From: Alkalimonas sp. | GTDB taxonomy: Bacteria; Pseudomonadota; Gammaproteobacteria; Enterobacterales; Alteromonadaceae | Assembly: GCA_007117525.1 (NCBI GenBank) | Contig: SKGJ01000132.1 | Coordinates: forward strand, 1 to 6,336 | Direction: 5' to 3' | DNA length: 6,336 nucleotides | Shown: positions 1 to 6,336 of the stretch, one piece after another | Layout: each line of letters begins with the position of its first letter | Position numbering within the stretch: position 1 is the first letter of the stretch | Made by a program: the position numbers and the translations under genes | Notes under the pieces: model-generated | What the model saw: only the letters and a program-made list of their open reading frames with translations | What the model was told of the DNA's origin: nothing | Database searches by the model: none

Positions 1-877
1 ATTGGAGCAAGTCGGCACCATTATGGATGGCCGCCCTGTTTTTGCACCGCGTGAACCAGGAAGTCGTCAAGACTATCTGCTGACAAATGCAAGCAGCGAT
101 GCTACGAACTATTCCTTCAGCACGTCCTTATCGCGTGTTGAAGACTTTGGCTTAAGCTGGACAGTAGCCTATGCTTACACCCAAGCCAAAGATGCCAACC
201 CAATGACCAGCTCTGTTGCGGCGTCAAACTTTAACAACTTTGCCCGTTCAGATTTTAACGACCCACGCAATGCGACTTCAAACTATGAAATACCGCATCG
301 CTTCACAGTACGAGCTGTCTACAACCATGAGTTTATTGATGGCTACAAAACAACCTTTAGCTTGGTAGGCTCACACAACAAAGGCCGTCCATTCAGCTAT
401 ACCTTCCGTGGACAGCTGTTTGGTGATAGCACCTTTGATCGTCAGTTGCTGTACATCCCAACTGGGCTGAATGATCCTGCGGTTGAGTTTGGACCAGATT
501 TTGATACGGATGCATTTTTTGCTTTTGTTGAAAGAACTGGTTTAAGCAAGTATGCGGGCCGTACTTCTGAAAGGAATGCTTTCCGCTCGGATTGGTGGAC
601 CAAGGTTGATCTTCGTATTCAACAAGAGCTGCCAGGTTTCCGTGACTCCCACCGCGCTAAAGCATTTTTGGTTGTGAATAACTTAACCAACATGCTCAAC
701 AGCAGCTGGGGTACTTTGTACGAAGCAGAGTTCCCGCAAGCTGAGCGTACTGTAACGGCTGAACTGCTGGACAACGGTGTTGTTCGATACAATCGTTTCG
801 AAGAGCCGCGTCCGCAAGGTCGCCGTGTTAATCCATCACTTTGGAACGTTGTGTTGGGGATTAAATACGATTTCTAA
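1..877 (+). CDS. TonB-dependent receptor, Oar-like, C-terminal part (5' truncated by window edge)
   Basis: This is the C-terminal 291 residues of an outer-membrane beta-barrel receptor; the reading frame is open from the first complete codon at position 2, so the N-terminus, plug domain and any TonB box lie outside the window. What is seen is alternating polar/aromatic strands typical of TonB-dependent barrels (for example residues 99-111 and 116-124), the segment 187-206 with an RN..R.DWW.KVDLRI pattern, NNLTN at 226-230, and a terminal ...GIKYDF ending in Phe, the usual barrel-assembly signal. The RN...W.KVDLRI.QELPG pattern and the absence of a compact siderophore-type C-terminus fit the Oar/carboxypeptidase-regulatory-domain group common in Alteromonadales, Cellvibrionales and Xanthomonadales. 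Such receptors import large substrates (glycans, peptides, chelates) using TonB-ExbBD energy. The substrate cannot be read here. The family call is fairly secure, the Oar subgroup less so. Confidence 0.85.
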   Translation, partial: LEQVGTIMDGRPVFAPREPGSRQDYLLTNASSDATNYSFSTSLSRVEDFGLSWTVAYAYTQAKDANPMTSSVAASNFNNFARSDFNDPRNATSNYEIPHRFTVRAVYNHEFIDGYKTTFSLVGSHNKGRPFSYTFRGQLFGDSTFDRQLLYIPTGLNDPAVEFGPDFDTDAFFAFVERTGLSKYAGRTSERNAFRSDWWTKVDLRIQQELPGFRDSHRAKAFLVVNNLTNMLNSSWGTLYEAEFPQAERTVTAELLDNGVVRYNRFEEPRPQGRRVNPSLWNVVLGIKYDF

Positions 878-903
878 TCGGTCCCTGGCTAAACAAAGCT
901 GAC

Positions 904-929
904 AAAACCGGCCTTTGGGCCGGTTTTTT
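904..929 (+). terminator. Rho-independent terminator of the receptor gene
   Basis: Stem CCGGCC (908-913) pairs with GGCCGG (918-923) around a TTTG loop. It is flanked by AAAA (904-907) that can pair with the first T's of a six-T run (924-929). It begins 26 bp after the receptor stop codon, so it should separate the receptor transcript from the salvage genes downstream. The A-rich upstream flank could make it partly bidirectional, but no minus-strand gene ends here. Confidence 0.92.
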
Positions 930-953
930 ATTTCTAAATGCACCGTTTTTAGC

Positions 954-959
954 GATAAT
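954..959 (+). promoter_or_regulatory. Possible -10 element of the udk-nupC promoter
   Basis: GATAAT differs from TATAAT at one position and lies 34 bp before the chosen udk start and after the receptor terminator, where a promoter is needed. The best -35 match at 17-bp spacing is TTTCTA (931-936), only three of six consensus bases, so recognition would be weak or activator-dependent. This is inference from position and one hexamer. Confidence 0.3.
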
Positions 960-992
960 TGCTCTTTGTGTGTATTGAAAAGTGACAACAAC

Positions 993-1625
993 GTGGGTAA
1001 GAACACCATCATTGCTATAGCAGGCGCCTCTGCATCGGGTAAAAGTTTATTTGCATCAACAGTTTATCAGGAGTTGGTAGCGGAGCTGGGTGGGGAGCGT
1101 ATTGCTATACTGGCGGAAGATGCCTATTACCGCGATCAAAGCCATTTGTCGTTTGAGCAGCGAACTCTCACCAACTACGACCATCCATCAGCATTTGAGC
1201 ACAAATTGCTGGGACAGCATTTGCAGGATCTGCGCGCAGGACAAGCGATTGACATGCCGCAATACTGCTACAAAACCCATACCCGAGTAGCGGACAGCAT
1301 CCGGGTGCAGCCAGCCAAGGTTATTCTGGTAGAAGGCATATTGTTGCTCAGCGATCCACTGCTACGCGATGAGTTTGATATCAGTGTCTTTATGGATACG
1401 CCACTGGATATTTGCCTGCTGCGCCGTATTCGTCGTGATTTGGAAGACAGGGGCCGAAGTTTGCAATCCGTGGTCGAGCAGTACGAAGCCACGGTCAGGC
1501 CTGCATTTTTTGATTTTATTGCACCGTCCAAGCAATTCGCTGACTTGGTGGTGACCCGCGGTGGCAAAAATGAAATTGCCATCGATATTATAAAAACGAA
1601 AATTCGCCAGCTACTGGCGGAATAA
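993..1625 (+). CDS. udk: Uridine kinase (uridine/cytidine kinase)
   Basis: Cytosolic NTP-dependent phosphorylation of uridine and cytidine to UMP and CMP in pyrimidine salvage. With the GTG start at 993 the protein has 210 residues, close to the roughly 213 of E. coli Udk, which I recognise as very similar along the whole length. Visible features are the Walker A loop GASASGKS (11-18), ED.YY (42-46), the NYDHPSAF substrate motif (61-68), HTR (96-98), the Walker-B-like ILVEGILLL (111-119), the [13 protein letters not shown] lid region (136-149), DRGRS (152-156) and RGGKN (189-193). The frame is open upstream to a TTG at 915, but that codon lies in the loop of the receptor terminator, so the extension is unlikely. 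An in-frame TTG at 975 (216 residues) is the alternative. The ribosome-binding site is poor for either. nupC follows after 17 bp, indicating an operon. Confidence 0.95.
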
Positions 1626-1629
1626 AGAC

Positions 1630-1642
1630 AAGGACCAGGGGA
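1630..1642 (+). promoter_or_regulatory. Ribosome-binding site of nupC
   Basis: AAGGA (1630-1634) lies 8 nt before the ATG at 1643. A second purine run AGGGGA (1637-1642) abuts that ATG and is only 3 nt from the next ATG (1646). Spacing therefore favours the first of the two adjacent ATGs. The site is in the 17-bp gap after udk, so nupC has its own translation signal on the shared transcript. Confidence 0.65.
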
Positions 1643-2851
1643 ATGATGGGATTAGTCGGCATCGCCGTGCTGCTGCTGGTAGCATGGCTGGCATCCAACA
1701 ATAAAAAGCACATTAACTGGCGCACCGTGGGTGGTGCTTTTGCCATCCAGGTCGCCATTGGCGCCTTTGTCTTGTACATTCCGTTTGGTCAGGATGTGCT
1801 GTACAGCATTTCGCAAGTGGTCGCCAATGTCATTGGCTATGCCAATGCTGGTATTGAGTTCTTATTTGGGGATTTAGGACGCTTCTCGCAAGGCTTTATA
1901 TTTGCCATCCATGTACTGACCATTATTATTTTTTTCTCATCGTTGATAGCGGTGCTCTATCACATCGGCATTATGACCTGGGTGATTCGTCTGATTGGCG
2001 GTGGCTTGCAAAAGCTGCTGGGTACCAGTCGCCCTGAGTCGATGTCGGCTGCAGCCAATATCTTCGTCGGGCAGACCGAAGCGCCTTTGATTGTGCGTCC
2101 TTTTGTTCCCACCATGACCCGCTCGGAGCTTTTTGCCGTGATGGTCGGTGGCCTGGCCTCAGTAGCCGGCTCGGTACTGGCTGGTTATGCCGGTCTTGGC
2201 GTGGAATTAAAGTACCTGATAGCGGCCAGCTTTATGGCGGCGCCCGGCGGGTTTTTAATGGCAAAAATGATACTGCCGGAAACCGAACAACCAAAAAATG
2301 AGCTGACTGAAATTGCTCAGGAAAAACCCCACACCAATGTGATTGATGCTGCCGCAGCAGGCGCTTCCAGCGGTATGCAGCTGGCGCTAAATGTGGGTGC
2401 CATGCTGCTGGCTTTCATTGGTCTGATTGCGCTGATCAATGGCATGGTCGGTGGCATTGGCGGTTGGTTTGGCATGGATAACCTGACTTTGCAGCTGATT
2501 TTCGGTTATGTATTCCAGCCACTTGCATTTATCCTGGGCGTATCCTGGGAAGAAGCCCGCATGGCGGGCAGTTTTATTGGCCAGAAGCTGGTGATCAATG
2601 AGTTTGTCGCTTACCTTGACTATGTTCAGGTGAAAGAGCAATTAAGTGCCCATACCCAGGTGATTGTGACTATTGCACTCTGTGGCTTTGCCAATTTCTC
2701 TTCCATTGCGATCCTATTAGGTGGCTTGGGCGGTATGGCGCCCGGTCGCCGGGCTGATATTGCGGCTCTGGGTTTAAAAGCCTTGCTGGCAGCAACATTG
2801 GCCAACTTAATGAGCGCTGCCATTGCAGGGTTCTTTTTTTCTTTAGGCTAG
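1643..2851 (+). CDS. nupC: Concentrative nucleoside transporter (NupC/CNT family)
   Basis: Inner-membrane symporter that brings nucleosides into the cell on an H+ or Na+ gradient. The 402 residues match the usual length of bacterial CNT proteins (about 400). In order: N-terminal membrane segments (about 1-60), interface helix and gate region (about 75-200), a charged cytoplasmic loop (about 211-232), and the C-terminal transport domain (about 235-402). The binding motifs are present: GQTEAPL with Q144, T145, E146, then INEF.AY with N319 and E320, and GFANFSS with F349, N351 and S354. In the Vibrio cholerae CNT structure the equivalent Gln-Thr-Glu, Glu, Phe, Asn and Ser residues line the nucleoside site, so the protein should be active. 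Which coupling ion it uses is not readable with certainty. It lies 17 bp after udk, coupling uptake to phosphorylation. ATG 1646 is an equivalent start one codon later. Confidence 0.95.
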
Positions 2852-2901
2852 TACCTCGAAAACCAATAGCATCATAAAAGTGCTATTGGTGCTCCTGGTA
2901 C
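2851..2901. repeat. Inverted repeat / hairpin between nupC and the oxygenase gene
   Basis: ACCAATAGCA (2862-2871) and TGCTATTGGT (2881-2890) are a perfect 10-bp inverted repeat with a 9-nt loop. The structure can be continued by GTACC (2851-2855) with GGTAC (2897-2901) across a 6x6 internal loop. There is no T-run after it, so it is not a standard intrinsic terminator. It starts at the last base of the nupC stop codon and ends just before the oxygenase ribosome-binding site. It could be an mRNA stabiliser or partial attenuator between the genes, or a protein-binding operator for a promoter in the gap. The repeat itself is certain; the role is inference. Confidence 0.7.
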
Positions 2902-2907
2902 CCAAAC

Positions 2908-2910
2908 AGG
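2908..2910 (+). promoter_or_regulatory. Ribosome-binding site deciding the oxygenase start
   Basis: AGG (within AACAGG) lies 8 nt before the ATG at 2919. The in-frame GTG at 2880 would add 13 mostly hydrophobic residues with no such site, and it lies in the inverted repeat. The ATG at 2919 is therefore preferred. Confidence 0.55.
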
Positions 2911-2918
2911 TCTTATTT

Positions 2919-3869
2919 ATGACACAGCAAGTTCCAACGTTAGATATAAGACGGTTTGCCACCGACAAAGATAACTTTGTTGCCGAAATTGGCAAGGCCT
3001 ACACTGAGTTTGGATTTTGTGGCATTAGCGGTCACGGGATCTCCGATGAAGTGGTAGCAGAGACATACTCCGCCATTAAGCAGTTTTTTGCGCTGCCCAA
3101 TGAAGTAAAAGCGAAGTACCACATGCCGGGGCAGGGCGGTGCCCGCGGTTATACCGGCTTTGGCGTGGAAAAAGCCAAAGATAGCAAGCATCCGGATCTG
3201 AAAGAGTTCTGGCATGTTGGCCGTGAACTGGACGGCGCTGCACCGCACCCTAGCTTGTACCCCAATGTTTGGCCTACTGAAGTGCCGGGCTTTAAAGAAG
3301 CGACCTACCGCTTGTACAGCGAGCTGGAAAAGCTGGGCAACCGGGTCTTAGAAGCGCTGGCGCTCTTCTTAGGGCAGCCACAGGACTATTTTGCCGATAA
3401 GGTCAATTTTGGCAACTCTATCCTGCGGCCTATTCATTATCCGCCAATTCAGGATACCAGCACTCAGTCGATCCGAGCAGGTCAACACGAAGACATTAAT
3501 TTGATCACCTTGCTGGTCGGCTCGAACGAGGCTGGTTTGGAAATACTGCGGCGGGATGGCAGCTGGTTGCCGGTCACGACCATTGAAGGAACCATCGTCG
3601 TGAATATCGGTGATATGCTGCAGCGGTTAACCAACCATGTGTTGCCATCCACCACCCACAGGGTGGTGAATCCGGCTGGTATGGCTGCGGGCGAGCCTCG
3701 ATACTCCATTCCTTTCTTTATGCATCCAAATCCGGATTTTGTCATTGAGACGCTGCCAAGCTGTATCAGTACTGAGCGCCCCAATCGTTATCCGGAGCCA
3801 ATTAATTCCAACGACTATTTAATGCAGCGTTTGGAAGAGATCGGCTTGCTAAAAAAGAACGGAAAATAG
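2919..3869 (+). CDS. Isopenicillin N synthase-like Fe(II)/2-oxoglutarate oxygenase
   Basis: A cytosolic non-haem iron oxygenase of 316 residues, the usual size for this family. The N-terminal DIOX_N-type domain spans about residues 6-115 (VPTLDIRRF start, FGFCGISGHGI at 31-41, RGYTGFG at 76-82). The double-stranded beta-helix catalytic domain spans about 165-270. The iron triad H190-x-D192 ... H247 is intact (GQHEDINLITLL; STTHRVV), and R261-Y-S263 is the RxS pair that binds the 2-oxoglutarate carboxylate in most members. SILRPIHYPP (167-176) is the typical strand before the triad. It should be catalytically competent, but bacterial members of this group are mostly uncharacterised and the family also includes enzymes with quite different substrates, so no substrate is assigned. 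It lies 67 bp after nupC on the same strand and may be cotranscribed. No convincing terminator follows its stop codon. Confidence 0.9.
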   Translation: MTQQVPTLDIRRFATDKDNFVAEIGKAYTEFGFCGISGHGISDEVVAETYSAIKQFFALPNEVKAKYHMPGQGGARGYTGFGVEKAKDSKHPDLKEFWHVGRELDGAAPHPSLYPNVWPTEVPGFKEATYRLYSELEKLGNRVLEALALFLGQPQDYFADKVNFGNSILRPIHYPPIQDTSTQSIRAGQHEDINLITLLVGSNEAGLEILRRDGSWLPVTTIEGTIVVNIGDMLQRLTNHVLPSTTHRVVNPAGMAAGEPRYSIPFFMHPNPDFVIETLPSCISTERPNRYPEPINSNDYLMQRLEEIGLLKKNGK

Positions 3870-3993: not shown

Positions 3994-4080
3994 GCAGATG
4001 TGGTGGAATTGGTAGACACGCTAGCTTCAGGTGCTAGTGCTCGAAAGGGCGTGAGAGTTCGAGTCTCTCCATCTGCACCA
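3994..4080 (+). tRNA. tRNA-Leu, anticodon CAG
   Basis: An 87-nt tRNA with a long variable arm, as expected for leucine. The acceptor stem GCAGATG (3994-4000) pairs perfectly with CATCTGC (4070-4076), and the CCA end is encoded (4078-4080). The anticodon stem CTAGC/GCTAG (4021-4025, 4033-4037) encloses the loop TTCAGGT with anticodon CAG at 4028-4030, which reads the CUG leucine codon. The variable arm covers 4038-4052. The T arm is GAGAG/CTCTC around TTCGAGT (4053-4069), and the D loop has the conserved GG. All stems are intact. It is a single-gene unit with its own promoter and terminator. Confidence 0.97.
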
Positions 4081-4191: not shown

Positions 4192-5658
4192 TTACCGTTT
4201 GAGCTCAATCCGGCGGATAAAGTCTTCCACCAGCAAATCATAGAGCTTGTTGCCCAGATACAAATCTTCCACTCCATCATCGATGTTTGGGTTGTCATTG
4301 ACCTCGATCACGTACACCTTATCCCCATCTTGTTTGATGTCAACGCCATAGAGGCTGTCGCCAATCGGAGCGCAGGCTCGAATAGCAGCATCAAGCACAT
4401 GAGCCGGTACTTCGCTCACAGCGCAGGTGCTAAATGCACCGCTTTGGGTTTTGCCGCTACCGTGCTTGTAAATCTGCCAGTGATTGCGCGCCATAAAGTA
4501 TTTGCAGGCAAAAAGCGCCTGACCATTTAAAACGCCTATACGCCAGTCAAACTCTGTGAAGGTATAGCGCTGGGCCAGGATGATGGCGCTTTGCTCAAAC
4601 AGCTCGGTCATTTTTTGCCGCAGCTCGGTCAGTGTTTTTACTTTCACCACCCCTCGGGAGAAACTGCCATCCGGGATTTTTAATACCATGGGTAAACCAA
4701 GTAAATCAGCCGCCCGCTCCAGATTGTCGGTATCGTATTTGAACAACATCAAACCATCCGGCACCGGTACCTGGTGCTGTTCAAACAGAGTTTGCAGATA
4801 AATTTTATTGGAGCAGCGTAAAATCGAGTTCGGATCGTCAATCACCGCCAGCCCTTCACGCTCGGCTTTTAATGCCATTTTGAAAGTATGATGATTGACA
4901 GCGGTGGTTTCACGGATAAAAAGGCCATCAAACTCTGCCAGCCTTTGATGATCGCGGGCACCGATGATCTCGGTATCCATGGCTGCTTTTTTGGCGGCTT
5001 TGCAAAACAGCTCAATGGAGCGGGGTGTACAGGGCGGGAACTGCTCCTTGGGATCCATTAACACGGCCAGATCGTATTTAAATTGCCGTTTGCTCGGCTC
5101 CAATCGCCAGATTTTATGACTAAAGCGCTCCAGCGCTTCAGCAAACTGTGTTTGTTGCGACTCGGTCAGTTTGTGCAAACTGCCAATACGAATGGTTTTT
5201 ACCTGCCACTGCTGTTTTTTGATTAAATCAACGTGCAGGATAGGAACAGAAAATGCTTCAAACAGGTAATCGGCCACTTTCTTTAGCGAGCGCTCGCTGG
5301 TTTCGCCAAAATACAATTGAAACCTAAGTTGCGTTTCCGGGTTATCTGCCAAGGCTTTATTGAGCTGCTTCGTCAACGCCACCGGGATATCATCAATCAC
5401 ATCGGCAATTTCGTCCCGGTTAAATTTATTAAATACTTTAATGGAAGGGATTGCATGATGATTGCGCGCTTCGGCCAGTAAAGAGCAGTAATAACCAGAT
5501 CCCAGGTACTGGGATTGACGGCAGAGGTTAATGAGCCGCACGCGCTGACGGGACTTGCCCTGCCACTTCAGGTAGTCAGCCAAAGCCATCACACCATCGT
5601 ATTGAAAGAAAGGTCCCCAATCTTGCAGTTTATCGACTACGATTAATAACTTAGACAT
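4192..5658 (-). CDS. RimK-like ATP-grasp ligase with RLAN-type N-terminal domain
   Basis: A 488-residue predicted ATP-dependent carboxylate-amine (amide-forming) ligase. The N-terminal alpha/beta region (about 1-180, beginning MSKLLIVVDKLQDW) matches what I know of the RLAN domain found in front of RimK-like ATP-grasps. The ATP-grasp occupies about 255-480: VLKIPDGSFSRGV (325-337) is the nucleotide-binding strand and flexible loop, DWRIGVLNG (371-379) follows, GVD (438-440) and IEVNDNPN (451-458) supply the acidic/Asn metal ligands (D440, E452, N454). All key residues look intact. The start is at 5658 because GGAA (5665-5668) lies 6 nt upstream; an ATG at 5718 would add 20 residues that cross the intergenic palindrome. 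It is not ordinary RimK, which is about 300 residues and acts on ribosomal protein S6. Family neighbours point to peptide synthesis or modification. The substrate is unknown. Confidence 0.88.
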   Translation of the reverse strand: MSKLLIVVDKLQDWGPFFQYDGVMALADYLKWQGKSRQRVRLINLCRQSQYLGSGYYCSLLAEARNHHAIPSIKVFNKFNRDEIADVIDDIPVALTKQLNKALADNPETQLRFQLYFGETSERSLKKVADYLFEAFSVPILHVDLIKKQQWQVKTIRIGSLHKLTESQQTQFAEALERFSHKIWRLEPSKRQFKYDLAVLMDPKEQFPPCTPRSIELFCKAAKKAAMDTEIIGARDHQRLAEFDGLFIRETTAVNHHTFKMALKAEREGLAVIDDPNSILRCSNKIYLQTLFEQHQVPVPDGLMLFKYDTDNLERAADLLGLPMVLKIPDGSFSRGVVKVKTLTELRQKMTELFEQSAIILAQRYTFTEFDWRIGVLNGQALFACKYFMARNHWQIYKHGSGKTQSGAFSTCAVSEVPAHVLDAAIRACAPIGDSLYGVDIKQDGDKVYVIEVNDNPNIDDGVEDLYLGNKLYDLLVEDFIRRIELKR

Positions 5659-5687
5659 ATGCTGTTCCGGGAAAATATACTTCTTGT

Positions 5688-5693
5688 ATTGTA
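5688..5693 (-). promoter_or_regulatory. Possible -10 element of the ligase gene
   Basis: Read on the minus strand this is TACAAT, one mismatch from TATAAT, placing transcription start near 5681 and leaving a leader of about 23 nt that includes the GGAA site. The nearest -35 candidate (TTGGGC) is 19 bp away and poor, and it lies inside the palindrome. A second AT-rich hexamer, TATATT (5674-5679), would start transcription too close to the ribosome-binding site. Confidence 0.3.
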
Positions 5694-5699
5694 GACACT

Positions 5700-5768
5700 G
5701 AAGCAGATGGCTGCCCAATGAAATCCTTTGCTCGTCAGCAGCAAAATAATTGGCTTGTCATCTGCTTC
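5700..5768. repeat. 69-nt imperfect palindrome in the divergent intergenic region
   Basis: Three nested dyads share nearly the same centre: GAAGCAGATG/CATCTGCTTC (5700-5709, 5759-5768, perfect 10 bp), CCAAT/ATTGG (5715-5719, 5749-5753, same axis after symmetric 5-nt internal loops), and TTTGCT/AGCAAA (5727-5732, 5740-5745, 7-nt loop, shifted by an unequal internal loop). As DNA it could be a paired operator set for both divergent genes; as RNA it would be a long leader hairpin. No terminator T-run follows on either strand. Confidence 0.65.
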
Positions 5769-5813
5769 GAAACACGTGCAATGTCTGGTTACAACACAAC
5801 AGAGCTAGGACTT

Positions 5814-6336
5814 ATGGAAAACAACGATCTCTGTATCCGCGATGCGGTGATCCAGGACCTGGCCCACTTGGTGCAACTGGAGCAAGCTTGCTTTGAAGCC
5901 GATCGGATAAGTCGACGCAGCTTTAGGCACTTTATTCTGGATAAGCGCAGTGATCTGCAGGTACTGGAAAAAAATAGCCAGCTAGTAGGTTATTTTCTGG
6001 TGCTGTACCGTCGTGGCATAAGTCTGGCCCGATTGTACTCGCTCGCCGTATCACCAACCGAACGAAAACAAGGTTTTGCACAGCTGCTGTTAAATCAGGC
6101 TGAGTTATCAGCACGCCAGCGGCGCTGTGTTTTTTTACGACTTGAAGTCAGGCCAGATAATCAAGGGGCCATTGCTTTGTATCGCAGGCATGGGTATCAG
6201 GAGTTTGCTATCCGGCACGATTTTTATGAAGATCACTCGGATGCACTTTGCATGCAAAAGCGCGTATTCAGCTATCAGCAACAGGGTGATAGTAAAAGAA
6301 TTCAATTTATACAGCAAACCACGCCTTTTACTTGTG
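5814..6336 (+). CDS. GNAT acetyltransferase, N-terminal part of a probable GNAT-C39/papain-like peptidase fusion (3' truncated)
   Basis: The frame is open to the window edge; 174 codons are visible. Residues 5-150 form a RimI-like GNAT acyl-CoA transferase: IRDA start (8-11), LYSLAV.P (74-81), the acetyl-CoA pyrophosphate-binding R/Q-x-x-G-x-A at R84-K-Q-G87-F-A89, and motif B LEVRPDN..AI.LYRRHGY (110-128). A short linker (151-162) leads to IQFIQQTTPFTC, where Q167 or Q168 and C174 sit like the oxyanion Gln and catalytic Cys (Q...TC-G) at the start of C39-like peptidases. RLAN-RimK genes are typically next to just such fusions, which supports the reading. AGGA (5807-5810) lies 3 nt before the ATG at 5814; in-frame ATGs at 5781 and 5718 would add 11 or 32 residues without a better site. 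The GNAT call is firm. The peptidase part is inferred from about ten residues and the neighbourhood. Confidence 0.82.
   Translation, partial: MENNDLCIRDAVIQDLAHLVQLEQACFEADRISRRSFRHFILDKRSDLQVLEKNSQLVGYFLVLYRRGISLARLYSLAVSPTERKQGFAQLLLNQAELSARQRRCVFLRLEVRPDNQGAIALYRRHGYQEFAIRHDFYEDHSDALCMQKRVFSYQQQGDSKRIQFIQQTTPFTC

Follow-up and report, generated by a model that had tools for sequence, protein, structure and literature searches.

The stretch analysed here (the window) is an entire 6336-base contig, SKGJ01000132.1, from the Alkalimonas sp. draft genome GCA_007117525.1 (G000; 2.09 Mb, 72% complete). Two genes diverge from one another within it: one encodes an ATP-grasp ligase with an N-terminal RLAN domain, the other a RimI-like acetyltransferase of the GNAT family, which is followed by the beginning of a C39-like peptidase domain (PF11814, DUF3335) where the contig ends. 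The features of the pair are as follows.

4192..5658, minus strand: RLAN-RimK ATP-grasp ligase, 488 amino acids (open reading frame, PF14401 and PF08443 matches, family length)
5134..5580, minus strand: RLAN domain (PF14401), 145.5 bits, profile positions 2-150 of 150
4279..4812, minus strand: RimK-like ATP-grasp domain (PF08443), residues 303-480 of the 508-codon open reading frame
5659..5813, no strand: 155-base intergenic region, a possible shared control region (from the coordinates)
5814..6336, plus strand: RimI-like GNAT, start at 5814 or 5781, C-terminal part lost at the contig end (open reading frame, profiles, family alignment, comparison with the congener G001)
5871..6197, plus strand: GNAT domain (PF00583), residues 52-160 when the frame is read from 5718
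6315..6335, plus strand: start of the C39-like domain, spanning the conserved Gln through the predicted catalytic Cys (alignment with complete relatives)

The ligase is complete. In the 508-codon open reading frame (4192-5718, minus strand), PF14401 was matched at 142.4 bits (cut-off 25; profile 3-150 of 150; E 1e-41) and PF08443 at 30.2 bits (cut-off 21), which bears out the proposal, made in an earlier note from inspection of the sequence, of an intact ligase with an RLAN-like N-terminal region. The nearest relative, P0121 from Alkalimonas, shares 98% identity and is 488 amino acids long; because this is the family length, the start codon was placed at 5658. The ligase of G001 is 100% identical across 487 columns. 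A predicted structure of the protein matched ArgX, LysX and RimK, and among solved folds ArgX and LysX fit the ATP-grasp half best; the PDB matches span only about residues 190-487 and therefore make no statement on the RLAN fold. The PF08443 match and the RimK-type fold together place the protein among the RimK-like ATP-grasp ligases.

The divergent open frame (5718-6335, plus strand) scored 57.2 bits against Acetyltransf_1 and 88.3 bits against the rimI model TIGR01575 (cut-off 86.4). A second copy elsewhere in G000 reached 126 bits, and the linked GNATs of congeners score under the TIGR01575 cut-off; in G001 and G004 (81% and 88% complete) no RimI copy was stronger than the linked GNAT. The window and G001 differ by a one-base indel that precedes the ATG at 5781, so translation would begin at 5781 or 5814 and not at 5718; the ATG at 5814 agrees with the start seen in the family alignment. 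The final full codon (6333-6335) encodes the Cys in the QTTPFTCGPA motif of the family, which is the predicted catalytic residue. Because the contig ends inside the GNAT gene, the PF11814 domain is unreadable in this genome: no match was found in the truncated window protein or anywhere in G000. All five congeneric genomes carry a complete GNAT-PF11814 protein beside, and divergent from, the ligase, and each of the 48 C39-bearing genome loci keeps Gln, Cys, His and Asp in place. The GNAT half of the earlier prediction is thus seen directly, while its C39/papain-like extension is documented in the congeners, none of which has a GNAT that stops short of the peptidase. One relative, P0027, joins a GNAT, the first PF11814 residues and the end of an ATP-grasp domain in a single protein, as if a deletion had fused both genes.

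Between the two start codons is an imperfect inverted repeat (5700-5719 and 5749-5768; 20 bases, 80%) that also occurs in G001. Promoter-like sites in the window numbered 9 against 7.4 expected, which is not above chance; a control region shared by the divergent genes, as the earlier note supposed, is possible.

Linkage of the two families was strong at every scale. Among 59 relatives, RLAN was found in 27 genomes and PF11814 over its cut-off in 25, each of these with RLAN; the two RLAN genomes lacking it were G000, with its cut gene, and G011, and in three of the 25 (G015, G031 and G033) the families lie on separate contigs. In a phylum sample of 397 Pseudomonadota genomes from 232 genera, RLAN occurred in 81 genomes (46 genera), PF11814 in 62 (33 genera), and both in 61 (Fisher p 5e-53, kinship ignored), in keeping with the description, cited in the earlier note, of RLAN ligases as nearly always adjoining a GNAT-peptidase. 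That note had also treated divergence as a departure from an operon. Across the genome loci compared (the best 80 of 581 confirmed relatives and, judging by their titles, almost all from Gammaproteobacteria), 74 are divergent, one is tandem and five have no GNAT match (L058, L060, L069, L083 and L133); since divergence is the usual layout, that of the window is normal. The other frequent layout is tandem with GNAT-C39 first: the phylum sample has 65 PF11814 places, of which 28 are of that kind, 21 divergent, seven in tandem with the ligase first, three convergent, one far away on the same contig and five on another contig or without RLAN.

The peptidase is not a constant member of this association. 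GNAT alone is the neighbour of the ligase in 27 of the 80 loci, and PF11814 was absent from the entire genome in all 25 of the GNAT-only genomes searched (the 27 loci less L090 and L100). Two further genomes were searched: L133 had none and L091 (Chiayiivirga) was positive. In the phylum sample, 20 of the 81 RLAN genomes lacked PF11814, G000 among them, whereas only one of the 62 PF11814 genomes lacked RLAN; ten of the 20 were examined at the locus, and a GNAT was present in nine. On a FastTree phylogeny of the ligase (122 rows: 77 with PF11814, 37 without and eight unlabelled; long branches flagged), the PF11814 label required 11 changes, at least eight of them forced by well-supported branches, and it changes even between closely related Pseudomonas (L096, L131). 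Of the 37 rows that lack PF11814, 35 still have a GNAT in the ligase locus; since L070 and L149 are identical rows, probably from a single genome, the 37 may amount to 36 genomes. The ligase and acetyltransferase look like the core, with a one-sided dependence of the peptidase upon them. The earlier note had set the three activities side by side, with a peptidase that trims or transfers; the absence of PF11814 from whole genomes that keep the ligase and GNAT counts against an essential step of that kind. Since the pair persists without the peptidase, and the peptidase hardly ever occurs without the ligase, we infer that the peptidase acts on the product of the pair, most likely in turnover or trimming and not in a step required for synthesis. 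Two drafts on the tree, L103 and L116, are titled Eremiobacteraeota and Bacteroidetes; their ligases group among gammaproteobacterial ones, and the contigs are perhaps misassigned. Contigs from a viral collection (L138:7681-8993, L135, L137 and L140) carry relatives of the ATP-grasp half that lack a complete RLAN domain; the one in L138 overlaps a GNAT gene of the same orientation.

A second candidate hydrolase accompanies the pair in some lineages. A DUF2817 (PF10994) gene adjoins the ligase in eight loci of Methylococcales, Methylophaga and kin; in seven it stands between the ligase and the GNAT-C39 gene, on the GNAT strand, and the eighth (L060) is cut by the contig end. The Pfam match was confirmed for three of these neighbours. 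Counting full-length strong matches only (68 places; 96 if weak ones are included), DUF2817 occurs in 54 of the 397 genomes, 25 of them with RLAN (p 3e-6, kinship ignored), and in 14 phylum-sample genomes it lies no more than 8 kb from RLAN or PF11814, in varying layouts (e.g. L143, L144, L147). In G091 (L144, L145) a stand-alone GNAT adjoins the RLAN ligase, and a GNAT-C39 gene followed by DUF2817 lies about 2.1 Mb away. DUF2817 was not found in G000, a 72% complete draft. Its motifs (THGxEGF, DLNRN, DxHxGLG, TLEFG) resemble the M14 zinc carboxypeptidase pattern; a sequence search of the PDB returned no relative (best E 0.11).

The reading we favour, at a probability of roughly 0.4, is that the ligase and acetyltransferase make an N-acetyl-capped short peptide, and that the fused cysteine-peptidase-like domain hydrolyses or trims it. 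This is predicted from sequence. The ligase would couple an amino acid to an acceptor carboxylate at the expense of ATP, after the manner of RimK and ArgX/LysX; the RimI-like GNAT would acetylate this small peptide at its alpha-amine, or else the alpha-amine of its first residue; and the C39-like domain, together with the M14-like DUF2817 enzyme in some lineages, may cleave the product in turnover. DUF3335 members are described as often fused to GNAT domains, which might be peptide ligases or acetylate (PMC10318531). Synthesis of an acetyl-peptide followed by C39 hydrolysis is placed first because the dependence is one-sided. A more specific version, which we regard as speculative and rather doubtful, would be a bacterial counterpart of the N-acetyl-dipeptide cycle of the brain: the RLAN ligase and RimI-like GNAT would form an N-acetyl-capped acidic oligopeptide, an ordinary metabolite in about one-fifth of the sampled Pseudomonadota, recycled by two unrelated peptidases (the GNAT-fused cysteine type and the M14-like zinc type), each of which would appear and disappear independently of the core.

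Several observations weigh against the acetyl-peptide reading. The changes of the C39 label on the tree are unreadable as loss or gain, and in two of the 37 PF11814-less rows (L133 and L156) no GNAT was seen in the locus. In G248 and G091 the GNAT-C39 gene is located away from the ligase. The RimK active site is incompletely copied, Arg364 of the window ligase standing where RimK has its ADP contact E178, and R249, R373 and N454 could be positions common to ATP-grasp enzymes rather than specific ones. The fusion of GNAT and C39 could equally mean that both halves act in sequence during synthesis. Finally, RimI-type enzymes are best known as protein acetylators, which fits the main rival.

That rival is protein tailing, in which the ligase would add residues to a protein. 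RimK is described as adding glutamates to RpsF and making free poly-glutamate, and RimB as taking glutamates off (PMC12239564, PMC11957791); RimB is there described as a retropepsin-like aspartic protease (PMC11957791). The RimABK system thus offers both a precedent for tailing and a likeness to the window, a RimK-type ligase with a peptidase partner. The RimI-like character of the window GNAT suits a protein substrate, as does the lack of a recurring substrate gene near the pair, which is expected if the target is a housekeeping protein. However, tailing alone leaves the retention of the GNAT without the peptidase unexplained, and RimK has nothing that corresponds to the RLAN half, the structure matches being to the ATP-grasp half only. 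The peptidases also differ, C39-like in the window system and retropepsin-like in RimB, and the GNAT belongs to the window system. We consider tailing somewhat unlikely.

Lower still we rank a scheme in which the C39-like domain acts first, cutting a precursor to release a peptide that the GNAT and ligase then modify. In the five congeners, and in most loci that bear C39, GNAT and C39 belong to a single chain, which could hand over a cut peptide. Against this order of events, the ligase and GNAT persist in the 25 GNAT-only genomes searched that lack PF11814, and no conserved precursor-like short open reading frame was found, which makes it improbable. A cluster for a ribosomally synthesized and post-translationally modified peptide is very improbable: ATP-grasp ligases and C39-type peptidases are known from such clusters, but the neighbours, where identified, are lineage-specific housekeeping genes, and among 2515 open reading frames of 18-90 amino acids around 75 loci no candidate precursor family exceeded five genus labels. 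The widest short family near the pair is lipoprotein-like and reflects Lysobacterales synteny.

Two other known systems share parts of the acetyl-peptide scheme. The LysW-dependent enzymes ArgX and LysX share the ATP-grasp half, but their matched structures are without an RLAN domain, and no small carrier-like frame recurring near the pair was seen among the short open reading frames of the 75 loci. In N-acetylglutaminylglutamine synthetase (TIGR03103), an acetyltransferase and an ATP-grasp domain cooperate on a dipeptide within one protein; the window has an acetyltransferase and an ATP-grasp domain in separate proteins, and its GNAT scores 21 bits against the TIGR03103 cut-off of 569.

A conserved third gene was also sought and rejected: the most widely spread neighbour families, reaching 11 genus labels at most, are those of Lysobacterales. 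Their identified members were, one each, DapF, a XerC-like recombinase (332 against a cut-off of 335) and a proteasome-family gene, and several wide opposite-strand families could be antisense frames. A LysR regulator, seen at L061, is not a general partner. The remaining features of the window are as follows.

2-877, plus strand: C-terminal fragment with no Pfam match (open reading frame list and profile search)
within 2-3869, plus strand, in order after the fragment: uridine kinase, NupC-type nucleoside transporter, and isopenicillin N synthase-like 2OG-Fe(II) oxygenase (open reading frames, profile matches)
3994-4080, plus strand: tRNA-Leu gene, anticodon CAG, between the oxygenase gene and the ligase

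The tRNA gene is preceded by a promoter-like site and followed by a terminator-like hairpin, and in the congener G002 (L142) a tRNA likewise occupies this position.

From comparative genomics, Iyer and colleagues reportedly predicted in 2009 that RLAN (PF14401) ligases have a GNAT-DUF3335 (PF11814) partner; the ligase family, partner families and neighbourhood are the same here, and the window is an ordinary member of this widespread, already described association. The new points beyond that prediction are that the layout is usually divergent, that the peptidase is dispensable, and that DUF2817 is a neighbour in some lineages. The literature searched, with subscription journals mostly outside it, yielded no paper testing the product of an RLAN ligase. 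The split into core and accessory parts renders the question of the product testable, in a ligase family present in 81 of the 397 Pseudomonadota genomes. If the peptidase serves turnover, lineages without PF11814 (Rhodanobacter, Dyella) should retain the product, and loss of the ligase or GNAT should abolish it; should the product prove to be an acetyl-capped peptide, a common metabolite would have been overlooked so far.
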